This document shows positions 7,195-47,628 of a stretch of DNA of 64,000 bases, one piece after another. The notes under the pieces are model-generated. The model was not told the origin of the DNA and did no database searches. It was given only the letters and a program-made list of their open reading frames with translations. Source of the DNA: Rhizobium sp. Q54. Its GTDB lineage: Bacteria; Pseudomonadota; Alphaproteobacteria; UBA2966; CAIVPW01. Position 1 is the first letter of the stretch. Each line of letters starts with the position of its first letter. The translations under genes and the position numbers were made by a program. The DNA lies in the NCBI GenBank assembly GCA_945947575.1, contig CAMEYM010000003.1, positions 1-64,000 on the forward strand, read 5' to 3'.

Positions 7195-7848
7195 ATGTCG
7201 CTGCGCTCGCACATCGGCTGGGGCATCCATTCCCTGATCCAGTCCTACTATCGCGTCCAGGTGAACGGGCGGGTGCTGGAGCATGCCGGCCGCTACGCCG
7301 GCGAGAAGGCCTATCCACCGCAGTACGTGGACCTCGTCCGCCTGACGCGCTTCGTGCACGCGCGCAAGCCGTCGGTGGTGTGGGAGCTCGGCGCCGGGTG
7401 GTCGACGCAGTTCCTGGCCCAAGCGCTCGCCGACAACGGCCACGGCCATCTTTATTCGATGGATGCGGCCGCGGAGTGGGCGAGTCATGCGCGTGCCATG
7501 CTGCCGCCGTGGCTGGGGTCGTGGGTGGAGATCCACCACAGCCCGGTGAGCAAGCAGGACGTCGGCGGCACCTGCGCGGTGAAGTACGCGTGGCGGCCGC
7601 AGCCGATGCCGCAGTTCATCTATCTGGACGGTCCCGCTGGAGCCAAGGAATGCCCGGGCCACGCCGACCTGATCGAGATCGAGGAGCGCCTTGCGCCGGG
7701 CTGTTTCATCGTCATCGACGGCCGCGGCACCACTGCTGAATTCTTGCGCACGAATTTCCGCAGAGAATGGCGCTACTGGCAGGACCCGGGTCCGCTCGGG
7801 CGCTACTTCAGCCAGTTCAACCAACACTATCTCGAACTGCAGCGCTAG
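7195..7848 (+). CDS. class I SAM-dependent methyltransferase-like protein
   Basis: 217 residues. VVWELGAGWSTQFLAQAL (about 61-78) matches motif I of Rossmann-fold methyltransferases, followed by an acidic strand end at LYSMDAA (motif II). Later strands appear at FIYLDGP and CFIVIDGRG. No family-specific catalytic signature is visible, so the acceptor is unknown. It lies between the divergent egt operon and the urea locus; the 186-base gap before urtA holds a sigma-54 promoter, suggesting it is not part of the urea operon. No clear Shine-Dalgarno is visible before the ATG. Confidence 0.7.
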   Translation: MSLRSHIGWGIHSLIQSYYRVQVNGRVLEHAGRYAGEKAYPPQYVDLVRLTRFVHARKPSVVWELGAGWSTQFLAQALADNGHGHLYSMDAAAEWASHARAMLPPWLGSWVEIHHSPVSKQDVGGTCAVKYAWRPQPMPQFIYLDGPAGAKECPGHADLIEIEERLAPGCFIVIDGRGTTAEFLRTNFRREWRYWQDPGPLGRYFSQFNQHYLELQR

Positions 7849-7973
7849 CCTGCCTCGAACTTAGGCGACGCGCCCCGCGCCGCCTATTCTGTGTGCAGAA
7901 CCCGCGCCCGGCGCACCCCGAACGACTCAGGATTCATCTGTGCTGCCAATAGCTTAGGCAGAGTCCGCGACCG

Positions 7974-33668: not shown

Positions 33669-34787
33669 ATGACGCAGACCAACGCCTCGCCCGGCGAGCG
33701 CATCCATTCCGCGGACCTGCTGCGCGCGTTCCTGATGGTGTCGGTGATCTTCATTCATGCGGGCACGCTCACTTCGGCGATCCCCGCACTGGTGGCCGGC
33801 AACATCCTGGCAACGTTGTTCGTCATGATGGGGTTCTTCCTGCTGTCCGGCTTCTTTGCCGCGATGTCGCTGACGAAAGACCGGTCCGCGGATTTCCTGC
33901 GCAAGCGCCTGGTGTCGGTGCTGGTGCCGCTGGCGGTGTTGCTCCCCACCAACGTCGTCGCCCTGTGGGCGATCGACGCCTACGCGCGAGCGCGCGCCGA
34001 GGCGTTCCCGCGGTTGGAGGTCGGCACGTTGGCCAATCCCTGGCACTTGCACTTCTGGTTCCTGTTCGTGCTCGCTGCTTTCATCATCGCGGCGCCCCCG
34101 CTCAACGCCCTCGCCGAATGGGCGGCGCGAACTCTGCAGCGGCGCGCCCTGCCGCCTCTCGTCCTCGGGCTAGCGCTGGCCACCCTGCTGACGCTGCTCA
34201 GCCGCGCGGCACTCAAGGTCCTGGCGGCGGCCACATGGCCGTCCCTGGACGAGACCTGGCTGGTGCTGGCGGTGGCGCTTTATCTGCCGTCGTACACGAT
34301 CGGATTGCTCGCCTGGCACCACCCCGGGCTGCGCGCGGCGTTGATTGCACCGCGCGCCTCGTATGCAACGGTCTGGCTGGCGACGGCAGCCGCCGGGCTC
34401 GTGGTTCTCTTGCTGAGCGGCATCGATGGACCGCCGCGCCGCGTGGTCGAGGCGCTCACCGGCCTCGCCTTGTTCGGGCTGGCGAGCTTCGCCTTCGCGA
34501 GGCTGGCGCGCGAGCACAGCCCGGCAATGGCGTTCGTCATCGACGCCGCCTACACGGTCTACCTCGTGCACTTCTTGTGTGTGTGGCTGTTCCTCGCAGC
34601 GGCTGGCGCATACATCGAATCGTACGCCGTGCTGTATGGGCTGGCGGTGTGCGTCGGGCTAGCCGTACCGCTGGTCATCCACGCGCTGCTCGTGCAGCGC
34701 TCGGAAATCGCGGCGTTCCTCCTCAACGGGAGGCGCCGCAAGCGCCGTACCGCGCCGGCCGCGGCGCGGCCGGAATTCGTGCGCTAG
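33669..34787 (+). CDS. acyltransferase 3 family membrane protein (OpgC-like), copy 1
   Basis: 372 residues, about ten helices. Starts ERIHSADLLRAFLMVSVIFIHAG, the usual R-x-DxxR...H motif of acyltransferase-3 proteins, where the His is catalytic. FFLLSGFFAAMSL and WHLHFWFLFVLAAF fit the MdoC/OpgC branch, which succinylates or acetylates glucans at the membrane. It ends in a basic tail (RRRKRRTAP). A second homologue lies at 35253. Substrate unknown. Confidence 0.85.
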   Translation: MTQTNASPGERIHSADLLRAFLMVSVIFIHAGTLTSAIPALVAGNILATLFVMMGFFLLSGFFAAMSLTKDRSADFLRKRLVSVLVPLAVLLPTNVVALWAIDAYARARAEAFPRLEVGTLANPWHLHFWFLFVLAAFIIAAPPLNALAEWAARTLQRRALPPLVLGLALATLLTLLSRAALKVLAAATWPSLDETWLVLAVALYLPSYTIGLLAWHHPGLRAALIAPRASYATVWLATAAAGLVVLLLSGIDGPPRRVVEALTGLALFGLASFAFARLAREHSPAMAFVIDAAYTVYLVHFLCVWLFLAAAGAYIESYAVLYGLAVCVGLAVPLVIHALLVQRSEIAAFLLNGRRRKRRTAPAAARPEFVR

Positions 34788-35252: not shown

Positions 35253-36374
35253 ATGAGCGGCGAGCGCGGTTCCGAGCGCATCCATTCCGTGGATGCGCTG
35301 CGCACTTTCCTGATGTTCGCAGGCATTTTTGTTCACGCCGGGACCGTTGCGGTCCCGGTGCTGCACGGCATCATCTACACCTCCTCTTTGTTCCGCATGG
35401 AGGGCTTGTTCCTCCTGTCCGGATTCTTCGCCGCCATGTCGCTGGCGCGCACCCCCGCGCACGAGTTCATCGCCAAGCGCATGCCGGGCATGCTCGTGCC
35501 GCTGTTGGTGGTGCTGCCCCTCAACTTCGTCGTGCTGTGGCTGGTCGGCGCCTACGCCGAGGCGCGCACCGCGGCGTTCCCCGATGTCGATCTTGGGCCG
35601 CTGCCGCACGCGTGGCACCTGCACCTGTGGTTCCTCATCGTCCTCGCGGGGTTTGCGGCATCAGCGCCGTACCTCAACCCCCTCGCCGCACGCGCGGCCC
35701 CGTTCCTGGCCCGGGCACGCGTCGCACCGATCACCCTGGCGATCGCCCTGCTCGTGGCGATGGAGGTGTGTGCGCGCGCCTCGGTTGAAGCAATGGCGCT
35801 GGTGTGGCCGGGCGTAGAAGCGGAGTGGCTCATCGTCGCGCAGTTCATCTATCTGCCCTTCTACATGCTCGGCATGCTGGCCTGGCATCATCAGAGCCTG
35901 CGCGACACTCTCATTGCTCCGAGCGGCCGCGCAGCAGCCACCTGGTCGCTGGTGGCGGCCGTGGCCTTCGCCTTGGTAATCAGCGGTTTGCTGCCGGGGC
36001 CGGTGAGGGTCCTCACAGAGAACGTTTTCGGTGTGGCCGTGATCGGCGTCCTCTCGTATGGGTTCAAGATCGTGGTGCGCCGACGCACCCCGTTCCTCGC
36101 CTTCCTGTCGGAGTCGGTCTTCACCGCCTACCTGCTGCACTTTGCCTGCATCTGGGTGGTGCTCGCGGCGCTCGGCGGGGTGTTCGAATCCTACTGGCCG
36201 ATCTACGCAGTTGCCGTGGTCGCGGGTTTCGCCGCGCCGTTGCTGGTCCATGCGTACGGGGTGCGCCGCTCGAACGTGATCGGCTTCCTGTTGAATGGGC
36301 GCCGGCCAAAGGGCGCGGAAGCCCCGCGTTCCTCCGCCCCGGCCGTGCTCGCCTCGCAGACTCCGGCGTCCTAG
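35253..36374 (+). CDS. acyltransferase 3 family membrane protein (OpgC-like), copy 2
   Basis: 373 residues and clearly paralogous to the 33669 gene: SERIHSVDALRTFLMFAGIF then VHAG, FLLSGFFAAMSLARTPA, WHLHLWFLIVLAGF, LLHFACIWVVLAALGGVFES and the closing VIGFLLNGRRPK. The catalytic His is kept. Copies are separated by a small opposite-strand gene, so this is a duplication followed by divergence. Its stop overlaps by 4 nt the stop of the convergent gene at 36371. Confidence 0.85.
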   Translation: MSGERGSERIHSVDALRTFLMFAGIFVHAGTVAVPVLHGIIYTSSLFRMEGLFLLSGFFAAMSLARTPAHEFIAKRMPGMLVPLLVVLPLNFVVLWLVGAYAEARTAAFPDVDLGPLPHAWHLHLWFLIVLAGFAASAPYLNPLAARAAPFLARARVAPITLAIALLVAMEVCARASVEAMALVWPGVEAEWLIVAQFIYLPFYMLGMLAWHHQSLRDTLIAPSGRAAATWSLVAAVAFALVISGLLPGPVRVLTENVFGVAVIGVLSYGFKIVVRRRTPFLAFLSESVFTAYLLHFACIWVVLAALGGVFESYWPIYAVAVVAGFAAPLLVHAYGVRRSNVIGFLLNGRRPKGAEAPRSSAPAVLASQTPAS

Positions 36375-37295: not shown

Positions 37296-38285
37296 TTATT
37301 GCGGAACGAGGTGCGGCGCCAAACCGACGCCACCTACACGCCGCGCGACACGCGGTTCCGCCAGCACACGCGCCGAGCTGGGCGCTGCGTCGCCAAACTC
37401 CGGATAGCGTGCGGCCCAATCGAGCACGTCGTCGCGATGCCAGAGAACGAGCGTCACGCGGGGGCGGAAGACACCGCTCTCGTACAAGCGCTTACGCTCT
37501 GCACTGCCCGTGAGCACACCGCAGTCCGGGGGCGCCTGCTCCATCTCCGCCGTGAACGCGCCGTTGTCGATGAACAGGTCGCGCGCCCAGGCTAGGTGCG
37601 GCGTCACGTCGCGCAAGCACTCGGAATGCAGCCACGACATCCCCTGGATGCCCTTCAGGCGCGGCTGCAGCTCCATCGACCGAGCGATGCGATAGAACGA
37701 CCGGCACGCCTCAGTGCGCAGGACGACGGGCTTGTCGCGCCACGGACTAAGGTGAATCGATGCGACCGGAGCAAAGCCGCCGTAGCGCGAGGTCACCTCG
37801 TGCAGCAGGCGCAGGGCGTGGGCAGGCCGCACCCGCATGCGCAGCAACGGCGCGCGGCCGGCACCGCCGACGACCCAGTTGTGCTGCCCAGCCGGGAAGC
37901 GCTGGAGGGTGACGGCTTGCGCCAGTTCATGGAACTCCCAGCTGCTGCAGTCGAGGGTGCGCGCAAGCGCAGGCAGCCGCGCGAGCACGTTGCAGATGTT
38001 GCGCTTCACGGACACATCGACCGGCAGGCCTTCGACGCGCGAGGCTGCGGCTGGAACGGCCGCCAGTAAGGCGAATCGTGCCATGCTGGCTTCCGGCCAG
38101 GACTTGTCCCGACGCAGCGCCATGGTGCGCAGCCATCGTGCACGGGAGAGAAGCGCGAACCATTGCTCGGCGGAACGGCGCCGGGTGTCCGCATAGGCAG
38201 CGAACTCCGTGGCGACAGCCGCCGCGCAGTCCGCCGACGCGCGGCCAAGATCGGCGCGCAGCGCGTCACGCTCTTCCGCCGTCAT
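37296..38285 (-). CDS. unrecognised 329-residue protein, last gene of the carrier-protein cassette
   Basis: 329 residues from ATG 38285 (a GTG directly before it is also possible). Not recognised. Soluble, Arg- and Ala-rich; the conserved-looking centre is LKGIQGMSWLHSECLRDVTP followed by AWARDLFIDNGAFTAEM, with His/Asp/Glu residues that could form an active or metal site. Other parts: WEFHELAQAVTLQRFPAGQH, LSPWRDKPVVLRTEACRSFY. It overlaps the nadE-like stop, so it is translationally coupled and must act with that pathway; a tailoring or condensing enzyme is a guess. Confidence 0.7.
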   Translation of the reverse strand: MTAEERDALRADLGRASADCAAAVATEFAAYADTRRRSAEQWFALLSRARWLRTMALRRDKSWPEASMARFALLAAVPAAASRVEGLPVDVSVKRNICNVLARLPALARTLDCSSWEFHELAQAVTLQRFPAGQHNWVVGGAGRAPLLRMRVRPAHALRLLHEVTSRYGGFAPVASIHLSPWRDKPVVLRTEACRSFYRIARSMELQPRLKGIQGMSWLHSECLRDVTPHLAWARDLFIDNGAFTAEMEQAPPDCGVLTGSAERKRLYESGVFRPRVTLVLWHRDDVLDWAARYPEFGDAAPSSARVLAEPRVARRVGGVGLAPHLVPQ

Positions 38286-39307
38286 CACGGCGCGTTCCCC
38301 TCGATGCTCCCGGACGTGGCGGCGAGCGGGACACCGATGCGCACGGCATCGCGCGCCAGGCGATGCGCGGCGCGCCGCTTGGACTGGAAGTCGCCGCGCA
38401 AGCGCGCGACGGCGGCTTCGTCGAGCCCCAGCGCGGGCGCCACAGTGGCATCGCTGACACCGCGGTTCATGGCATCCAGCAGGACGTCTGCCTGCGCGTA
38501 GGGCAGCGCGAAATAGAACTCCTCTTGAGTCTGCGGCAGACCATAGGTGTCGGTGCTCGGCGCCTGTGCACGGATCTCCGCCGGCACGCCCAGATGGGCG
38601 GCAAGCTCGTAGACCTGCGTCTTGTAGAGATGCGCGATTGGCTTGAGGTCGGCGAGGCCGTCGCCGCCGCGCACGAAGAATCCGAGTTCGTACTCGAGGC
38701 GGTTGGGGGTGCCGAGCACGGCGTAGTTGAGGCGCTCAGCATGATAGCACTCGATCATCTTACGGACGCGCTGCTTGAAGTTGGTCGCGGCGACGACCTC
38801 CAGATAGAGCTCGTGCGGCATGCGCAGGTCGCTGCGCACGCCCTGGGGCGACTCCGCCACCAGGTGGAAGACCGGCAGGCGGCCATCGACGGCGCGCTGG
38901 GTGACGATCTTGTGGCGCCACCCGGCGCCGTAGGCCGGCAGCACCTTGCGAATGGCGGCGTCGCGGCGGCGGTAGCAGCCCAGCGCCTCGAGGCTCGGGC
39001 CGATCGGCTCGACAAGGAACGACACGCCGATCTGGCGGCACAGGCGCTCGGCGCGACCCATGGCGTCGTCCGATCCCTCCCGCTCCGGCATGAGGATGGC
39101 GAGCACGCGCTCAGCACCGAAAGCGCGCGCCGCCAGGGTCACGCATACGGCGGAATCGATGCCGCCGCTGACGCCGACGACGATGCCGCGCCGGTTCAAT
39201 TCGCGCACGGTGGTCTGGACGAGGAACTGCTCGATGCGCTTGGTCTCTACGGCGTAGTCGATGACGAGAGACGGCGGACGCGCTTGCGACTCGGGGAAGA
39301 TGGACAT
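38285..39307 (-). CDS. NAD synthetase-like (NadE family) amidating enzyme
   Basis: 340 residues from ATG 39307, which has an AAAGGA site; ATG 39322 has none. ATP-pyrophosphatase fold with the P-loop VVGVSGGIDSAVCVTLAARA. NadE features continue: MPEREGSDDAMGRAERLC, VLGTPNRLEYELGFFVRGGDG, DLKPIAHLYKTQVYELA and PSTDTYGLPQTQEEFYFALP. In NadE this activates nicotinate adenine dinucleotide for amidation. Its place among a ligase, a carrier protein and an asparagine synthase suggests a recruited role: adenylating a carboxylate for amide formation. It could still be a plain NAD synthetase. Confidence 0.82.
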   Translation of the reverse strand: MSIFPESQARPPSLVIDYAVETKRIEQFLVQTTVRELNRRGIVVGVSGGIDSAVCVTLAARAFGAERVLAILMPEREGSDDAMGRAERLCRQIGVSFLVEPIGPSLEALGCYRRRDAAIRKVLPAYGAGWRHKIVTQRAVDGRLPVFHLVAESPQGVRSDLRMPHELYLEVVAATNFKQRVRKMIECYHAERLNYAVLGTPNRLEYELGFFVRGGDGLADLKPIAHLYKTQVYELAAHLGVPAEIRAQAPSTDTYGLPQTQEEFYFALPYAQADVLLDAMNRGVSDATVAPALGLDEAAVARLRGDFQSKRRAAHRLARDAVRIGVPLAATSGSIEGNAP

Positions 39308-39336
39308 AGGGGTCCTTTTCATTTTCTTGTTCTTCG

Positions 39337-41358
39337 TTAGGCAGGAACGGAAACGGACATTGGTTGCGTCGGTTGGTCGTCCTCCGCAACGTGCAGGGGC
39401 GAGCGGTCAAGGCGCCGACGTGCGTCACGCACGCGCTCGGCGAAGCCCGAGCCGAATTGCTGCCACAGCGACTGCAGCGTGAGCACGCCGATCAGGCCCA
39501 TTTCCTCGCGCTCGGAGGCGAGTTGTCCGTCGCGAGCGCGCGCCTTGGCGACAAGGCGGGCGGTCGCTGCCGCATCGATCAACCCGCTCTGCAGCAGCGC
39601 CCGTTCCGACAGCAATCCATCGAGTTGGCTGCCGCCTTCTTGCAGCAGCGACGTTGCGATCGGCGCGCGGAAGGGGCGCTTCGGCCGCGCCGCGATCGCC
39701 GCCGGCAGCAGGTCGCGCGCGAGGTGGCGCAGAATGAGCTTGTCGCGCGTGCCCAGCAGCTTGTGGCGTGCCGGTTGCGCCAGGCAGAAATCGACGACGC
39801 CCGGATCGAGGAACGGGTAGCGCACCTCGACGGCATTGCCCATGGCGACGCGATCGCCTTGGCTCGCCAGCAGGTAGGGCGCCATGAAGGTGTTCATCTC
39901 GATGAGCTGGGCGTGCTCGAGAGAGCCGGCCGCGTAGCCGTCGCGGGGCATTGCCGCCCGCAGCTGCCCGACGATGCGCCCCAGGTCGTTGCTGCGCCGC
40001 ACGTCCGGTGCCAGCAGGTGCGTCGCCCAGGCGTTGTTGGCCCAGCGCACCGCGTGCGAATAGAACGGGTCGCTCGTCTCGGTGAGGCCGCGCCGGAAGA
40101 ACGACTGCCACAGCGGCGTGGCGCGAGTGCGCTCGTCGCCGACGTACTCGTGGATGCGTCGCAGCAGCGCCGGGCGCATCGCCGAAGATGGCTGGCGCGC
40201 CCAGAAGCGGCGGATGCGGTCCTCTTTGAAGATCGTGTAGCCGCCGAGGATCTCGTCGGCGCCTTCGCCGGACAGCACCGCCTTGATGCCGGAAGCCCGC
40301 ACCAGGCGCGACAGCAGGAACATTGGCACGGGCGAGGCACGCAGGAGCGGCGCCTCGCAATGCCAGACCACTTCGGTAAGAGCCGCGCGGATGGCGGCGC
40401 CGTCGCAAATGGTCTCGTGATGCGCGCTGCGCAGATGGCGCGCGACGGCGCGCTGCGGATCGGTCTCATCGAAGCGCGCGTCCGGGAAGCGGATACTGAA
40501 CGTCGGCAAGCCGTCGCCGCGCTGTGCGGCGGCCAAGCCGGCCAGCACCGACGAGTCGAGGCCGCCACTGACGTAGACGCCCACCGGCACGTCGGCCTCC
40601 AGGCGCAAGCCGACCGCCTGCTCCAGTCGCGCCCGCAGCGCGGCGCTGGCCTCGGCCATCGTCGTCGCATCGAGCGTGGCGGGAGATGGTTCCCAATAGC
40701 GCTGCTCGGTCCGCCGCAAGCGTGCGTCGAAGCAGATCGCCGTCGCCGGCGGAACCATCTCGACGCCACGGAACACGGTACGCGGCGCCACCACCGACCA
40801 CAGCGCGAAGGCCTCGACGAGAGCGGCGGGATCGAGGACCGGGCGGGTACGTCCACCGGCGAACAGGGCCTTGGCCTCGGACGCGAACGCGACGTGGCGA
40901 TCGGACTGCGCAAACTGCAGCGGCAGGATGCCCATGCGGTCGCGCACAAGCCACAGGCAGCGGCGGCGGCCATCCCACAGGGCGAACGCAAACTGGCCGT
41001 TGAGCATGCGCCAGGCGGCCTCGCCGTAGCGCTCGTAGCAGTGGACGATCACCTCGCCGTCGCCCTGCGTATAGAAGCGATGACCGAGCGCCACGAGCTG
41101 CGCACGCAGCTCGCGGAAGTTGTAGATCTCGCCGTTGAACGACAGCCACAGGGTGCGATCGGCGTTGTGGATCGGCTGGGCGGCACCCGCGAGGTCGACG
41201 AGGCTCAGGCGCGCGTGCGCCAGGCCGAACTGCCCGGAGCGGTAGAAGCCGTGACCGTCCGGCCCGCGATGGCCGAGCATCGCGATCATGTCGCGCAATT
41301 CGCCAAAGGTGGGCGGAGAGGAGGTGGGTCCGGCCAGAATGCCAGCGATGCCGCACAT
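39337..41358 (-). CDS. glutamine-hydrolysing asparagine synthase family amidotransferase
   Basis: 673 residues. Class II glutaminase domain starts with the catalytic Cys2 (MCGIAGILAG), then MLGHRGPDGHGFY and LWLSFNGEIYNFRELRAQL. The synthase domain has the pyrophosphate loop VYVSGGLDSSVLAGLAA and later LSGEGADEILGGY, RYPFLDPGVVDFCL. In a cassette with a carrier protein and AMP ligase, such AsnB homologues usually amidate a pathway intermediate rather than make free asparagine. Starts 10 bases after the ligase stop. Confidence 0.9.
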   Translation of the reverse strand: MCGIAGILAGPTSSPPTFGELRDMIAMLGHRGPDGHGFYRSGQFGLAHARLSLVDLAGAAQPIHNADRTLWLSFNGEIYNFRELRAQLVALGHRFYTQGDGEVIVHCYERYGEAAWRMLNGQFAFALWDGRRRCLWLVRDRMGILPLQFAQSDRHVAFASEAKALFAGGRTRPVLDPAALVEAFALWSVVAPRTVFRGVEMVPPATAICFDARLRRTEQRYWEPSPATLDATTMAEASAALRARLEQAVGLRLEADVPVGVYVSGGLDSSVLAGLAAAQRGDGLPTFSIRFPDARFDETDPQRAVARHLRSAHHETICDGAAIRAALTEVVWHCEAPLLRASPVPMFLLSRLVRASGIKAVLSGEGADEILGGYTIFKEDRIRRFWARQPSSAMRPALLRRIHEYVGDERTRATPLWQSFFRRGLTETSDPFYSHAVRWANNAWATHLLAPDVRRSNDLGRIVGQLRAAMPRDGYAAGSLEHAQLIEMNTFMAPYLLASQGDRVAMGNAVEVRYPFLDPGVVDFCLAQPARHKLLGTRDKLILRHLARDLLPAAIAARPKRPFRAPIATSLLQEGGSQLDGLLSERALLQSGLIDAAATARLVAKARARDGQLASEREEMGLIGVLTLQSLWQQFGSGFAERVRDARRRLDRSPLHVAEDDQPTQPMSVSVPA

Positions 41359-41368
41359 GGCGCCTTCC

Positions 41369-42895
41369 CTACTCGGCCAATGCGCCGGCGCGCAGGACGC
41401 GCTTGGCGACCTTGCCGGATTCGGTCGTCGGTAGCGCCGCGCATACCTCGACCAGGCACGGCATCAGCCGCCGCTCCAGTCGCTCGCGGCAATGCCGGCG
41501 GATCTGCTCGGCGGTGAGCTCGGCGCCTTCGTGGGCGACGACCATCACCTTGATGACGTGGCCGTCGTCCGGATCGGGCAGGCCGATCACGGCCGCCTCG
41601 CGCACCGCGTCGAGCTCGAACAGCACGTTCTCGATCTCGCGCGGATAGACCTTCTCGCCCTTCACCTTGAACATATCGTCCTTGCGGCCGACGAAGTGCA
41701 GGTCGTCATCCTCGTCCATGCGGAACAAGTCGCCGGTGAACAGGCGCTTGTCGCCCGTAGGCCCGTCGCGCAATACGTGCGCCGTCTCGGCGGGCCGGCG
41801 CCAATAGCCGCGCATGACGCCCGATCCACGCACTACCAACTCTCCGACGCCACCGCGCGGCACCTCCTGGCCGGCGTCGTCAACGACGGTCGCCTCCAGG
41901 TTCGGGATGGCGTGGCCGACCGACCCCGGCTTGGCATCGGCCTTGGCCGGATCGAGGTATGAGACGCGCGTGCACTCGGTGAGGCCGTACATCGACACGA
42001 AGCGCGCTTGGGGCAGGATCGAACGCAATTCCTGCAGATGTGCGGGCGAGAGCGCAGCGCCGGCGTTGGTGACATAGCGCAGCGCCGACAGATCGACCTT
42101 GCCCTCGCGTGCCAGGCGCAAGGTGGTGGACAGCATGGCGGGAACGGCCGGGAACCCCGTCGCACGCAGCGCCGCAGCGCGCTGCAGAACTTCGAACGGA
42201 TAGGTGAAGGAGCGCTCGAGCGCGACCGCGTAGCCGGCCTGGGTCGCAGTGATGACCTGGAACAGCCCATAGCTGAACGACAAGGGCAGCGCGCTGAGGA
42301 CGATGTCGGTCGGCTGGTTGTCGAGGTAGGTGGCGATCGACCAGGCGTTGTTGCGCACGTTGTGATGCGTCAGCATCACGCCCTTCGGCTCGCCGGTGGA
42401 CCCGGACGTGTAGAGGATCAGGCACAGGTCTTGATCGATGCTCGCGGAGACCGGCGCGCCCTCGCCCGCCGTCAGCAATCCCCGCAGGCCGTCACCCTGA
42501 GCTGTCTCGCCCACCCACAAGACGTTGCAGGCAGATGCGGCCTGGGCGGTCGCCAGCGAAACCCGCGCCCGCGCGGCCGACGCCGCGACCAGACAAGCAG
42601 GCTCGCAGTCGCAGAGTACGAAGGCCAAGCGGTCGGTGCTGATTCCCGCCGAGAGCGGCACGAACACCCCGCCCGCCTTGGCGGTCGCCCAGAGCGCGAC
42701 CACGTACTCGGCGCACGTCTCCAGGAGGCAGGCGACGCGGTCGCCGCGCCGCAGCCCGGAGGCCCGCAACGTGCGCGCCAGTCCGTCGCTTTGTTGCGCG
42801 ATTTCTGAAAACGTGTGGGCGCGCTCGCCGGCCATGAGGTACGGGCGGTCGGCATGCCGCCGCGCGGCGCCGTCGAGGAGATCAGCCAACAGCAT
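41369..42895 (-). CDS. AMP-forming acyl-CoA synthetase / carrier-protein ligase
   Basis: 508 residues, ANL superfamily. Core motifs in order: LILYTSGSTGEPKGVMLTHH (A3), LPLSFSYGLFQV, SMYGLTECTRVSYLDP (A5), FTGDLFRMDEDDDLHFVGRK (A7-A8), then VKGEKVYPREIE and the catalytic-Lys region TTESGKVAKRVL (A10). It activates a carboxylic acid as acyl-AMP and transfers it to CoA or to the pantetheine of the adjacent carrier protein. It begins 14 bases after the carrier-protein gene; substrate not predictable here. Confidence 0.9.
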   Translation of the reverse strand: MLLADLLDGAARRHADRPYLMAGERAHTFSEIAQQSDGLARTLRASGLRRGDRVACLLETCAEYVVALWATAKAGGVFVPLSAGISTDRLAFVLCDCEPACLVAASAARARVSLATAQAASACNVLWVGETAQGDGLRGLLTAGEGAPVSASIDQDLCLILYTSGSTGEPKGVMLTHHNVRNNAWSIATYLDNQPTDIVLSALPLSFSYGLFQVITATQAGYAVALERSFTYPFEVLQRAAALRATGFPAVPAMLSTTLRLAREGKVDLSALRYVTNAGAALSPAHLQELRSILPQARFVSMYGLTECTRVSYLDPAKADAKPGSVGHAIPNLEATVVDDAGQEVPRGGVGELVVRGSGVMRGYWRRPAETAHVLRDGPTGDKRLFTGDLFRMDEDDDLHFVGRKDDMFKVKGEKVYPREIENVLFELDAVREAAVIGLPDPDDGHVIKVMVVAHEGAELTAEQIRRHCRERLERRLMPCLVEVCAALPTTESGKVAKRVLRAGALAE

Positions 42896-42909
42896 CGACG
42901 AATCCGCGA

Positions 42910-43275
42910 TCAGCGCGCCGTCGCGCCTCTTGCTTGCAGTGACCGCCCGACGAACGCGCAGATGCGATCGACCGAGTCGAGGTTGTCCGCAACGATGTCG
43001 GAGTCGGAAATGGTCAGTCCGAACTGCGCCTCGAGGAACGCGATGAGTTCCATGGTGCCGGTCGAGTCGAGAATGCCCGCATTCAACAACGACGCGGCGT
43101 CGTCGAGTTCCGTGGTGGTCCGCAGCAGAATCTCATCGAGGATGTAGCCCCGAACCTTGGCGCGGATGCGCGCCGCATCGGCCAGGGTGGCGTCCGGGCG
43201 CGGCAAGGTAACGACGTCGACCGACGACGTCGTGTCGCGATCAACGGTGGCGATGGATTTCGTGGACGTGAGCAT
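42910..43275 (-). CDS. acyl carrier protein, first gene of the cassette
   Basis: 121 residues from ATG 43275, with a GGAGG site 8 bases upstream. After a ~35-residue polar leader comes a carrier-protein domain: RAKVRGYILDEILLRTTTEL, LLNAGILDSTGTMELIAFLE with the phosphopantetheine Ser in DST (the usual DSL), and ISDSDIVADNLDSVDRICAF. The Leu-to-Thr change after the Ser is unusual but seen in carrier proteins of dedicated pathways. As first gene it sets the cassette's promoter in 43276-43566, which otherwise shows nothing I can support. Confidence 0.85.
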   Translation of the reverse strand: MLTSTKSIATVDRDTTSSVDVVTLPRPDATLADAARIRAKVRGYILDEILLRTTTELDDAASLLNAGILDSTGTMELIAFLEAQFGLTISDSDIVADNLDSVDRICAFVGRSLQARGATAR

Positions 43276-43566: not shown

Positions 43567-43642
43567 TGGTGCCCGGGGACGGACTTGAACCGCCGACACG
43601 CGGATTTTCAATCCGCTGCTCTACCAACTGAGCTACCCGGGC
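43567..43642 (-). tRNA. tRNA-Phe (GAA)
   Basis: 76 bases on the minus strand with the CCA end encoded. Acceptor arm GCCCGGG/CCCGGGC, D-loop AGCTCAGTTGGTAGAGC, anticodon loop TTGAAAA (anticodon GAA), T-loop GGTTCAAGTCC. It lies downstream of the seven-gene cysteine-cluster array and its outer flank is duplicated at 33209-33257. Confidence 0.98.
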
Positions 43643-43716: not shown

Positions 43717-44259
43717 TCAGGCGCCGCCCGCCTGCACGCGCTGGGCGTGGTAGATCGGCCCCATGGGCGTGTCCTTGGTACCGACGACGATCTTCTCCCC
43801 CGGCTGCATGTGCCCGAGGTCGACGTCCTTGTCCGGCAGGACGCAGATGACGCGCCCGCCGACGTTGACGATGACGTGCTGCTCGCTGCTGGTCGCCCGG
43901 CGCGCCCAACTGCGCAGCTGGCTGTGATAGGGCTCCACCTTCCACGCCTCGGGATACCCCGGATCGACGTAGCAGACGATGCCGATGCCCTGGGCGCGCA
44001 GCACCATGCGCGACTTGGCCGGGTACCACTCTTCGCCAAGAGTCGCCGACAGGCGGTAGCCGCAATAGAACGTCTGGCACGGCTCGGGCCGGTCGTTGTA
44101 AATGCCGCAGCCCTTGCCCGGCTTGCAGTGCGTGCACCAGGTCCACTCCGGCTTGTTCAGCACCTTGATGCCGAGCAGCTTGCAGCACAGCGTGCACGAG
44201 CCGCAGTGACGGCCAGGCACCGGCTCGTCCTTGGTCCCCTGCATGGCTGCTTCGGTCAT
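43717..44259 (-). CDS. YkgJ-type cysteine-cluster protein, array member 7 (last)
   Basis: 180 residues from ATG 44259. N-terminal cluster GRHCGSCTLCCK (Cys at 20, 23, 26, 27), then WCTHCKPGKGCGIYNDRPEP and CQTFYCGY: eight conserved Cys that probably bind iron-sulphur or zinc, as in the CxxCxxCC family. The C-terminal ~100 residues form the array's second domain (VDPGYPEAW, VLPDKDVDLGHMQPGEKIVV). It is the most divergent copy at the C-terminus and the only one separated from its upstream neighbour by a gap (14 bases) instead of an overlap. Confidence 0.88.
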   Translation of the reverse strand: MTEAAMQGTKDEPVPGRHCGSCTLCCKLLGIKVLNKPEWTWCTHCKPGKGCGIYNDRPEPCQTFYCGYRLSATLGEEWYPAKSRMVLRAQGIGIVCYVDPGYPEAWKVEPYHSQLRSWARRATSSEQHVIVNVGGRVICVLPDKDVDLGHMQPGEKIVVGTKDTPMGPIYHAQRVQAGGA

Positions 44260-44273
44260 GGCGCTTGATCTTA

Positions 44274-44822
44274 TCAGCGTTGCGGACCGGCAGCGGACGG
44301 GATGATCCGCTGTGGCCCCGCCTTGCGCGCGTTGTAGACGACGCCGAACGGCCCAGGCTGCGCCTCGACGATGACCTTGTCGCCCGGGTCCATCAGGCCG
44401 AGGTCGACCTCGCGGTCCGGCAGCACCACGATGGTGCGCGCGCCGATGCGCACGATCATCTGCCGATTGGCGGGGACCACCTGCTCGGCCCAACTCTTGA
44501 GCTGGGCATAGTACGGAGGCTCCTTCCAGGCGTCTGGCCGCCCCGGATCGACCACGGCCGTGATGCCGCCGTGCGGCTCCCGTACCAGCACGATCTTGGA
44601 GCGCGCCGGGTGCCAAGCCTCCGGCAGCTCGGGCGACGCGAGGTAGCCGCACCGGAAGGCGCGGCAGCTGGGCGGACGATCGGAGTAGATCGCGCAACCC
44701 TGCCCCGGGCGCGCGTGCTGGCACCAGACGCCGTTGGGCTTGGCGAGCTCGACGATGCGCAGCACCTTGCAGCACAGCGTGCAGGTGCCGCACGAGCGCT
44801 CGGGCGCGGCGGCGTCGCTCAC
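44274..44822 (-). CDS. YkgJ-type cysteine-cluster protein, array member 6
   Basis: 182 residues. Cluster RSCGTCTLCCK (Cys 11, 14, 17, 18) followed by WCQHARPGQGCAIYSDRPPS and CRAFRCGYL. Second domain: GITAVVDPGRPDAWKEPPYY, VRIGARTIVVLPDREVDLGL, MDPGDKVIVEAQPGPFG. This copy is the closest match to the broken fragment at 33257-33380. Start ATG overlaps the stop of member 5 by 4 nt. Confidence 0.9.
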   Translation of the reverse strand: MSDAAAPERSCGTCTLCCKVLRIVELAKPNGVWCQHARPGQGCAIYSDRPPSCRAFRCGYLASPELPEAWHPARSKIVLVREPHGGITAVVDPGRPDAWKEPPYYAQLKSWAEQVVPANRQMIVRIGARTIVVLPDREVDLGLMDPGDKVIVEAQPGPFGVVYNARKAGPQRIIPSAAGPQR

Positions 44823-45406
44823 TTCTTCGCCGCCGCCGGCGCCCTGGGCACCGCGACGCGCACGGCGTAGCCCGAATCGGCGCGGCGCGCCCGGTAGATC
44901 GGCCGCCCGGCGGGACCGGGGGCAGTTTCGATGACGAGCGGCTCGTCCATCTCCATCGGCCCAAGGTCGAAGTCCTCATCCGGCAGCACCGCGATCGCGC
45001 GCTTGCCGATGCGTACGACGACGTACTTGTTCGATGCCAACAGCTCGCGCGACCACGACTTCAGCTGCCGGTAGAACGGCTGCTCGCGCCAGGCGTCCGG
45101 GCGGCTCTGGTCCACCACCGCGGTGATGCCGCCGGTCGCGTCGGCCATCAACACGATCTTGGACTTCGCCGGAAACCACTCCTCGGACAGGTTCGACGAC
45201 AGGTAGCCGCAGTGGAACTTGCGGCACTCGTGCGGACGGTCCGCGTAGATGCCGCAGCCCTTGCCTTGCTTGACGTGCGGGCACCACACGCCGTGCGGCT
45301 TGTTCAATGCAGCGATGTGCAGGACCTTGCAGCACATCGTGCAGGTGCCGCACGACTTGCCGGCGGCGGGAGCGCCGCCCTCGTTTGGAGTGGCTACGTC
45401 GGTCAT
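44819..45406 (-). CDS. YkgJ-type cysteine-cluster protein, array member 5
   Basis: 195 residues, the longest intact copy because of a C-terminal extension (YAVRVAVPRAPAAAKK) and a longer leader. Cluster [11 protein letters not shown] (Cys 19, 22, 25, 26), WCPHVKQGKGCGIYADRPHE, CRKFHCGYL. Second domain: GITAVVDQSRPDAW, VVRIGKRAIAVLPDEDFDLG. The ATGA overlaps on both sides couple it to members 4 and 6. Confidence 0.9.
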   Translation of the reverse strand: MTDVATPNEGGAPAAGKSCGTCTMCCKVLHIAALNKPHGVWCPHVKQGKGCGIYADRPHECRKFHCGYLSSNLSEEWFPAKSKIVLMADATGGITAVVDQSRPDAWREQPFYRQLKSWSRELLASNKYVVVRIGKRAIAVLPDEDFDLGPMEMDEPLVIETAPGPAGRPIYRARRADSGYAVRVAVPRAPAAAKK

Positions 45407-45957
45407 GGCGCCCGGCTTTCATCCGCGTTCTTGCTCGGCGCGCCATCGGCACGCCGCGCGCGATACAAAGTCTTGCCCGTCGGCGCCTGCGCCGTCTCGA
45501 TGATGACGCGCTCACCCGGACCCATTTGGCCGAGGTCAGCGTCCTCCTCGGGCAGGATGGCAATCGTGCGGTTGCCGACCCGCACCAGCACCTGGCGATT
45601 GTGCTGCAGGAACGCGGCCGACCAGGTCTTGAGCTGCTGGTAGAACGGCGGCGACTTCCAAGCATCCGGCCGCCCGGCATCAACCACGGCGGTGATGCCG
45701 TTTTCGACATACATCAGGACGATCTTGGAACTGGCCGGAAACCACTCCTGCGAGAGTCCTGGCGAGACCAGCCAGCCGCAATGGAATTCACGGCACGAGC
45801 CCGGGCGCTCGGTGTAGATGGCGCAGCCGCGCCCGGGCTTGGCGTGCGGGCACCACTCGCCGTGCGGCTTGTGCAGCTCATCGATTGCCAGCACCTTGCA
45901 GCACAGCGTGCAGCTGCCGCACGAGCGGCCGGGTGCGATGGTCGCGGCGTCGCTCAA
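45403..45957 (-). CDS. YkgJ-type cysteine-cluster protein, array member 4 (TTG start)
   Basis: 184 residues. No ATG fits the family N-terminus; TTG 45957 does, and it overlaps the stop of member 3 as TTGA, the same 4-nt geometry used by ATG in the others. Cluster RSCGSCTLCCK, WCPHAKPGRGCAIYTERPGS, CREFHCGWL. Second domain: GITAVVDAGRPDAWKSPPFY, VRVGNRTIAILPEEDADLGQ, MGPGERVIIETAQAPTG. Coupled re-initiation would make a TTG start workable. Confidence 0.85.
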   Translation of the reverse strand: MSDAATIAPGRSCGSCTLCCKVLAIDELHKPHGEWCPHAKPGRGCAIYTERPGSCREFHCGWLVSPGLSQEWFPASSKIVLMYVENGITAVVDAGRPDAWKSPPFYQQLKTWSAAFLQHNRQVLVRVGNRTIAILPEEDADLGQMGPGERVIIETAQAPTGKTLYRARRADGAPSKNADESRAP

Positions 45958-46508
45958 CCCGCCGCCTCGGAGGCCGCCGGCTGCGGAAAGCCCGCGCCCT
46001 TGGCCTCTTTGCGTACGCGGTACTGCGGGCCGACCGGGCCCGGCATCATGTCCAGGAAGAAGGAGTCGTTTGCTCCAACCATGCCAACGTCCGCGTCCTC
46101 GTCCGGCAGGATGACGATGGCGCGCGCGCCGATGCGCAACAGCATGATGCGCCCCATCGGTGACATGACGCGCGCCCACGACTTGAACTGCTCATAGTAG
46201 GGCGCTTGGCGCCACACGTCGGGACGGCTCGGGTCGATCTGCGCGGTGATGCCGCGCTCGCTGGAGGACAGGACGATCTTGCAGCGCCCCGGGTACCAAG
46301 CGTCCGACAACGACCCGGTGGAGAGGTAGCCGCACAGGAACGCACGGCACGAGTGCGGGCGCGTCTCGTAGGTGCCACACCCCTTGCCCTGCACGACGTG
46401 CTTGCACCAGGTGCCGCTCGGCTTGTCGAGTTCGGACACCTTCATGAGCTTGCAGCACAGAGTGCAGGTGCCGCAGCTGCGGCCCGGCACGAGCTCGGCG
46501 AGTTTCAT
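45954..46508 (-). CDS. YkgJ-type cysteine-cluster protein, array member 3
   Basis: 184 residues. Cluster RSCGTCTLCCK (Cys 12, 15, 18, 19), WCKHVVQGKGCGTYETRPHS, CRAFLCGYL. Second domain is more diverged: GITAQIDPSRPDVWRQAPYY, LLRIGARAIVILPDEDADVG, then DSFFLDMMPGPVGPQY where others have an acidic strand. It carries an extra Cys (YPGRCKIVL) and a tail ending PQPAASEAAG. Overlaps members 2 and 4 by 4 nt. Confidence 0.9.
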   Translation of the reverse strand: MKLAELVPGRSCGTCTLCCKLMKVSELDKPSGTWCKHVVQGKGCGTYETRPHSCRAFLCGYLSTGSLSDAWYPGRCKIVLSSSERGITAQIDPSRPDVWRQAPYYEQFKSWARVMSPMGRIMLLRIGARAIVILPDEDADVGMVGANDSFFLDMMPGPVGPQYRVRKEAKGAGFPQPAASEAAG

Positions 46509-47053
46509 GGACCGGCGACCTCTGGCTTCTTCACCTTGTGGGCGCTGTAGATGCGGCCCAAGGGCCCGCGCCGCGCCTCGCAGATGATGCGGTCGCCCGG
46601 ATCCATTTCACCGAGGTCGACGTCCTTGTCGGGGAGCACGGCGATCGCGCGGCGGCCGACGCGCACCGTCACCTGACGGTTGCGTGGCACCCCGGACAGC
46701 GACCATGACTTGATCCGCTCGTAGAACGGCGGCTCCTTCCATGCGTCGGCGCGGCCCGGATCGACGTACAAGACGATCCCCGACGGCTCGCCGACCACAA
46801 GGAAGCGCGCCTTGGCCGGCAACCACTCCTCGGTGAGCGTGTCCGACTGCAGATAGCCGCAATAGAAGTCGCGGCACGACTGCGGCCGGGTCGCGTGGAT
46901 CGTGCAGCCCGTGCCCTGCTTGCAGTGCCCGCACCACGTGCCCATCGGCTTCTTGAGCTCGGGCACCATCATGAGCTTGCAGCACAGGGTGCAACTGCCG
47001 CACGAGCGGCCTGGCACGGTCTTGATCGGGCGCGGCGCGGCGATCTCCGTCAT
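46505..47053 (-). CDS. YkgJ-type cysteine-cluster protein, array member 2
   Basis: 182 residues. Cluster RSCGSCTLCCK, WCGHCKQGTGCTIHATRPQS, CRDFYCGYL (with an extra Cys in CGHC). Second domain: GIVLYVDPGRADAWKEPPFY, VTVRVGRRAIAVLPDKDVDL, GEMDPGDRIICEARRGPLG. Position GCxIY reads GCTIH here. Overlaps members 1 and 3 by ATGA. Confidence 0.9.
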   Translation of the reverse strand: MTEIAAPRPIKTVPGRSCGSCTLCCKLMMVPELKKPMGTWCGHCKQGTGCTIHATRPQSCRDFYCGYLQSDTLTEEWLPAKARFLVVGEPSGIVLYVDPGRADAWKEPPFYERIKSWSLSGVPRNRQVTVRVGRRAIAVLPDKDVDLGEMDPGDRIICEARRGPLGRIYSAHKVKKPEVAGP

Positions 47054-47628
47054 GGCGCGGCGTCCACCGGCGTCTGTGCCGGTATCTTTTTCGCCTCGTA
47101 GCGCGTGCCGGTCGGCGTGGGACGCCAGCCGATCTCGATGCCTTCGCCGGACTCCATCACGCCGAGCTCGACGTCGCTGTCGGGCAGGATGGCGGTGACG
47201 TGCTCATCGACTCGCACAATGACGAACCAGCCCTCCGCCATGCCCTGGCGCGACCACGCCTTGAGCTGCCCGTAGTACTGCGGCTGCTTCCAGATGTCCT
47301 TGCGGTCGCGGTCGACGACCGCGGCAATGCCTCCATCCACCTTCATCAGCAGCATGCGCGCCTGCTGGGGCCGCCAGCTCTCGCCCACACCCGGCGAGGT
47401 GAGGTACCCGCAATAGAACTCGCGGCAGGACTTGGGGCGCGTCGCGTAGATGCCGCAACCGGAACGCGGCGCGCAGTGGGTGCACCACGTGCCCTGCGGC
47501 TTATTGAGCTCCGGCACCACCATCAGCTTGCAGCACATCGTGCACGTGCCGCAGGCGCGGCCGGGCACGAGCGGCACGTCGCCGCCGGCGCCGAGCGGGT
47601 TGCCGTCACGGCCTCCCGGGGCACTCAC
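47050..47628 (-). CDS. YkgJ-type cysteine-cluster protein, array member 1 (first after yacG)
   Basis: 192 residues from GTG 47628, which overlaps the yacG stop (GTGA). Cluster [40 protein letters not shown]. Second domain: [58 protein letters not shown]. Its Gly-rich leader ([16 protein letters not shown]) is unique. The frame is open to 47718, but that part overlaps yacG and reads as shadow. Confidence 0.88.

Follow-up and report, generated by a model that had tools for sequence, protein, structure and literature searches.

We find support for a dedicated, conserved gene module, present in Rhizobium sp. Q54 as a five-gene operon, that combines a carrier protein, an AMP-forming ligase, an AsnB-family amidotransferase and a NadE-like ATP pyrophosphatase with a fifth, more variable component. 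We put the probability at about 0.5 that this is a self-contained acyl-amide module, in which an amidated acyl group would be moved to an amine, most likely that of an amino sugar in a glycan. The operon was studied within a window of 64,000 nt, the whole stretch of DNA that was analysed (positions 1 to 64,000 of contig CAMEYM010000003.1), and alongside loci from other genomes that encode relatives of the NadE-like protein.

The operon and its surroundings

All five genes are on the minus strand, arranged head-to-tail in the transcription order carrier, ligase, AsnB, NadE-like protein and fifth protein, with gaps of 14, 10 and 14 bases along the operon and an ATGA overlap between the NadE-like gene and the fifth gene. 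The first gene (42910-43275) encodes an acyl or peptidyl carrier protein of 121 aa with an N-terminal extension and a serine in a DST motif (PF00550, 26.2 bits against a cut-off of 20.8). It is followed by genes for a predicted AMP-forming acid:carrier ligase of 508 aa (41369-42895; PF00501 AMP-binding, 287 bits; PF13193 AMP-binding_C, 61 bits) and for AsnB, a class II asparagine-synthase-family amidotransferase of 673 aa (39337-41358; TIGR01536, 452 bits against a cut-off of 267). The NadE-like ATP pyrophosphatase (38285-39322; PRK00876, 422 bits against a cut-off of 313) lacks a glutaminase domain and has 345 aa, or 340 aa if translation starts at an inner ATG at 39307. The last gene (37296-38285) encodes a protein of 329 aa that we propose, from its position in the operon and a weak fold match, to be a GNAT-like N-acyltransferase. 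An intrinsic terminator (37271-37247, minus strand), with an 11-pair stem that includes 10 G-C pairs and is followed by a T-run, ends the operon, and a tRNA-Phe(GAA) gene (43567-43642, minus strand) lies just upstream of it. This layout agrees in every element with the first-pass annotation, which had described five closely spaced or overlapping minus-strand genes, a carrier with its serine in DST and a closing terminator. That annotation had also noted the absence of a polyketide or peptide synthetase, and none was recognised among the called gene starts of the window in a partial domain scan; nor was an exosortase, by reading and a partial domain scan from the same gene starts.

The genes around the operon include seven tandem paralogues on the minus strand (43717-47628), encoding proteins of 180-195 aa with a CGxCxxCCK motif. 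The members of this array that were scanned have no above-cut-off Pfam match, one of them having a sub-threshold match to a CxxCxxCC family. On the other side, downstream of the cassette and on the opposite (plus) strand, are two genes for Acyl_transf_3 membrane acyltransferases (33669-34787 and 35253-36374).

A four-gene core recurs in unrelated genomes

Scanning one genome per species with an alignment of the NadE-like protein yielded at least 561 confirmed relatives, and we read 84 loci, namely those of the best 80 of these at least 561 NadE-like (PRK00876) relatives plus four others. A ligase gene is found no more than 6 kb from the NadE-like gene at 76 of the 84 loci, and carrier and AsnB genes within the same distance at 71 each; all three are present at 61 loci, many contigs being cut. 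The hosts are Alpha-, Beta- and Gammaproteobacteria, together with contigs labelled Myxococcota, Planctomycetota, Geothrix, Nocardioides and Verrucomicrobia. S. meliloti carries the cassette on pSymB, as an asnB-carrier-ligase-nadE cluster next to minCDE, and many genomes of Azospirillum, Mesorhizobium and the Lysobacter group have it too. Gene order is variable, with carrier-ligase-AsnB-NadE, AsnB-carrier-ligase-NadE and NadE-AsnB-ligase-carrier all observed, and Azospirillum has the same order as the window, carrier-ligase-AsnB-NadE-acyltransferase. That the core set stays together though its order varies speaks for function, and the arrangement cannot be due to chance, as dozens of unrelated genomes have kept it. 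Protein distances within the core are correlated with those of the NadE-like protein (r = 0.91 for AsnB, 0.78 for the carrier and 0.55 for the ligase, values that include the shared ancestry of the genomes), the permutation maxima being 0.10-0.15, with none above 0.15. This linkage indicates that the core genes form one pathway. The first-pass annotation had suggested a search for the co-occurrence of all five families; the four-gene core does recur, but the fifth slot often holds another family, such as a tandem GNAT in Azospirillum.

The NadE-like gene is probably separate from NAD synthesis

The genes of the core appear in public records as nadE, asnB, acyl carrier protein and AMP-binding or adenylate-forming enzyme. 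Taken at face value, these names would describe two housekeeping enzymes, an NAD synthetase and an asparagine synthetase, whose genes merely happen to lie beside those of a ligase and a carrier, and the first-pass annotation had allowed for the case in which the two are the organism's only enzymes of their kind, with no conserved linkage to their neighbours. We found the reverse. Rhizobium sp. Q54 has another NadE-family gene, a frame of 562 aa on contig 18, and a search with TIGR00552 of 19 whole genomes with a cassette gave, in all 19, another strong match that is distinct from the cassette gene. These second frames are nearly always 550-660 aa long (439 aa in G315), and 550-660 aa is the size of glutamine-dependent NAD synthetase. 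Other AsnB-family genes, two of them full-length by model match, are present on contig 7 of the same genome, and the linkage of the cassette genes is conserved across the 84 loci. In addition, the same-genus sister genomes G001-G003 have no NadE-like gene. Given this redundancy of NadE in the genome of Rhizobium sp. Q54 and in the other 19, we rejected the housekeeping explanation, which we now consider extremely improbable. That all the genomes tested have a second gene of the NadE family instead supports the view that the NadE-like protein probably no longer serves NAD synthesis. A PRK00876 match above cut-off was also found in the archaeon Methanosarcina acetivorans, which was included as a control genome.

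The cassette is accessory

The cassette is accessory, being rare in the class and deleted in a sister genome. Only 2 of the 289 genomes sampled from the class have a member of the NadE-like subfamily. One genome of the same genus, G004, has the carrier, AsnB, NadE-like and fifth genes on one contig and the ligase gene (54% identical) on another; the separated ligase gene adjoins gyrA-like and coaD-like genes (L111, L134). No NadE-like gene was found in G001 or G003, nor did the flanking stretches that we read contain a cassette. In G002 the sequence on both sides aligns collinearly with that of the window, at 80-89% identity, but the four core genes are missing: a few dozen bases after the tRNA-Phe gene comes what remains of the fifth gene, a damaged stub (L109, C17, approximately 7390-7970), which places the deletion junction just downstream of the tRNA gene. 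The simplest reading of these alignments is that G002 has probably deleted an ancestral cassette. Since G002 would have lost the cassette and kept only a stub, the cassette appears to be dispensable. The region of the CGxCxxCCK array is also present in G002.

Predicted chemistry of the core enzymes

From the families of the core proteins, we propose that the ligase would adenylate a carboxylic acid and load it onto the carrier protein. AsnB would take ammonia from glutamine and activate a carboxylate with ATP to form an amide, and the NadE-like PP-loop enzyme would likewise activate a carboxylate with ATP to form an amide, such that the acid or product would bear one or two carboxamides. As the NadE-like protein has no glutaminase domain, it probably uses ammonia, perhaps supplied by AsnB.

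AsnB has GATase_7 and Asn_synthase domains, the glutaminase Cys2 (in MCGI) and an SGGLDSS motif; among the AsnB ORFs of the relatives' loci, the catalytic Cys is kept in 67 of 71 and SGGxDS in 70 of 71. The best NCBIfam match of the ligase is ligase_PEP_1 (TIGR03098; 406 bits, under its cut-off of 592), and the carrier matches NF052616, the ornithine-lipid carrier of OlsHI, with 52.6 bits, under the cut-off of 130. In the adenylation domains of nonribosomal peptide synthetases, an Asp in the substrate pocket binds the alpha-amino group of the substrate. The corresponding stretch of the window ligase is FSYG, as compared with FDGS in an NRPS adenylation domain, so that the Asp position is occupied by Ser. 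The pocket without Asp hints that the substrate of the window ligase may be something other than an alpha-amino acid. The residue at this position differs among relatives, being Asp in many, Gly in Azospirillum and Tyr in others, and we therefore make no substrate call beyond this hint for the window enzyme.

The NadE-like protein has a PF02540 NAD-synthase domain (153 bits) and an SGGIDS ATP-pyrophosphatase motif, SGG[IV]DS being intact in all 84 NadE-like relatives. It shares the PP-loop and two NAD-synthase blocks with solved ammonia-dependent NadE enzymes (e.g. 2e18) but belongs to a subfamily of its own, PRK00876, which has an inserted stretch: a run of some 60 residues that separates the two blocks, conserved in the five relatives aligned, lies outside the match to solved NadE. 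An alternative possibility is that the PP-loop chemistry of this enzyme is not amide-forming and involves another nucleophile or a nucleotide product, which would leave AsnB as the sole amide former of the pathway. Both the conserved stretch and the missing glutaminase domain would fit such a change of reaction. We nonetheless consider it improbable, since the protein has kept the NadE block GTxNxxE...GDGxAD...PIxxLYKxQV along with the ATP motif, and we saw no other cofactor domain.

The fifth position

In Azospirillum, the gene that comes after carrier-ligase-AsnB-NadE encodes a 368-aa protein annotated as GNAT. Two families occupy this slot, the 368-aa Azospirillum type (29 loci) and a 371-aa, mostly rhizobial type (19 loci); they are homologous (hhalign probability 98.6%, 302 columns), and a tandem-GNAT protein of either family is found near the core at 47 of the 84 loci. 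The model of the Azospirillum-type protein (pLDDT 89.1) has the tandem-GNAT fold of N-myristoyltransferase and Eis (Foldseek E approximately 1e-12, Z 21-22). Because the slot holds an N-acyltransferase at over half of the loci, acyl transfer can be proposed: the fifth protein would take the acyl group off the carrier and attach it to an amine, most likely that of an amino sugar in a surface or secreted glycan.

The fifth protein of the window has no Pfam or NCBIfam match, as is the case with Pfam GNAT models for several true GNAT members of the slot families. We also considered it as a sequence homologue of the slot GNATs, and set this aside when hhalign detected no similarity to either family. 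Its structure model has a pLDDT of 55.8 overall and near 80 for residues 190-300. The three top Foldseek matches are all to the teicoplanin N-acyltransferase Orf11* (4mfk), with an E of 0.05, which is in the chance range; the same applies to the superposition of residues 126-289 on Orf11* (VIA Z 7.5, 3.0 Å, 124 residues). Comparison of this low-confidence model with Naa50, NAA60, FdhC and LasI gave Z values of approximately 6. Matches to ion channels and tRNA synthetases were discarded, as they rest mostly on low-confidence N-terminal helices or poor superpositions. With the match in the chance range, a GNAT-like fold for the fifth protein is a lead, strengthened by position, rather than a result. 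The fold resemblance to known GNATs is weak for the fifth protein (to Orf11*) and strong for the slot GNAT elsewhere (to Eis and N-myristoyltransferase). Orf11*, Eis and N-myristoyltransferase use CoA thioesters, which differ from the carrier-bound donor proposed here.

A search of the rest of the Rhizobium sp. Q54 genome for a GNAT of the usual slot families, run without a positive control, detected none, and the fifth protein had no match in plasmids. A family of approximately 310 aa, encoded at L112 (1006-1932), L113 (1525-2454) and L115 (826-1806), is distantly related to it (20-22% identity, with BLAST pieces of approximately 30%) and has the motifs SSW(F/W)(Y/H)DP and ISP(R/N)LA(Y/F)L. 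The L112 and L115 members have no Pfam name and no plasmid matches, and those at L113 and L115 adjoin a polysaccharide deacetylase-like gene.

Glycan loci and the likely acceptor

Of the 84 loci, 39 contain genes of one or more clusters that we classed as glycan- or exopolysaccharide-type, only some of which were domain-checked. Azospirillum cassettes have glycosyltransferases and a polysaccharide deacetylase nearby, the Shinella cassette has an exopolysaccharide transport gene nearby, and two other relatives have an XrtA polysaccharide deacetylase and an exosortase nearby, the exosortase being beside L086. The suggestion in the first-pass annotation that the pathway modifies the cell surface thus gains from the many copies in exopolysaccharide loci, but is not borne out in the window itself, where no glycan locus adjoins the cassette. 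A gene for a PrmC/HemK-family methyltransferase is present at 15 of the 84 loci and a KAS III family gene at four. In the PrmC/HemK members that have been characterised, the group methylated is the amide of a glutamine side chain, and a carboxamide product would explain the presence of such a methyltransferase. Elsewhere in the genome of Rhizobium sp. Q54, on contig 7, is a glycan locus with two AsnB-family genes and sub-cut-off matches to an amino-sugar transaminase, a NeuD-type acetyltransferase and UDP-GlcNAc 3-dehydrogenase, such that amino-sugar acceptors may exist in the organism's own genome.

We tentatively propose, in its most specific form, that a NAD-synthetase paralogue was recruited, as the constant partner of AsnB, into a portable module for acid loading and N-acyl transfer that puts a carboxamide acyl group, probably N-methylated in some lineages, on surface glycans, although at this level of detail we hold the proposal to be possible rather than probable. 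It is also possible, if doubtful, that there is no surface modification, and that the product of the module is a small N-acyl amino acid amide, soluble or exported, which would act as a signal or compatible solute much as N-acetylglutaminylglutamine amide (NAGGN) does. The gene logic of NAGGN synthesis (AsnO and Ngg) is that of an acyltransferase and an amidotransferase, an AsnB-family amidotransferase and an acyltransferase being common to both systems, and the score of AsnB with TIGR03104, the model of the NAGGN amidotransferase, is 334 bits, though this is under the cut-off of 570. Moreover, neither the window copy nor those on S. meliloti pSymB and in M. ciceri have recognised glycan genes next door. 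Against a soluble product stand the 39 loci with glycan-type clusters and the gene content: NAGGN synthesis has no carrier protein or ligase, whereas the cassette adds both as well as the NadE-like protein, and has no Ngg-like gene among its five.

Relation to known systems and implications

The transfer of a carrier-bound amidated acyl group to a glycan amine would have a mechanistic parallel in butirosin biosynthesis, in which an acid is loaded on a stand-alone carrier and then transferred to a sugar amine; the cassette has no decarboxylase, monooxygenase or cyclotransferase. With the exopolysaccharide set of the XrtA/PEP-CTERM system, the cassette has in common a ligase, a carrier and AsnB in an exopolysaccharide context, but its ligase and AsnB score far under the curated thresholds of the two models concerned, TIGR03098 and TIGR03108, the latter being the second-best NCBIfam match of AsnB (375 bits against a cut-off of 817). 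We know of no NadE-like partner in the XrtA/PEP-CTERM set.

We did not find the gene combination described in open-access full texts, searched by exact-word matching. A study of flocculation in Shinella zoogloeoides (PMC9012009) reports two asparagine synthetase genes in the exopolysaccharide cluster of Zoogloea and Aquincola, and the words ligase, acyl carrier and amidotransferase are absent from it. The terms asparagine synthase, amidotransferase, ligase and acyl carrier are absent from the description of the PEP-CTERM system (PMC1569441), and two further papers (PMC6351105, PMC3538637) name asnB without the cassette set. Likewise, we found no description in the open-access literature of a surface-glycan carboxamide modification or of such a use of the NadE fold. 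Given that the core genes carry the names nadE and asnB, metabolic models are likely to misread both as housekeeping genes. If our proposal is correct, an amide-forming role would be added to the NadE fold, and bacteria would have a portable means of furnishing glycans with acyl groups that bear amides.
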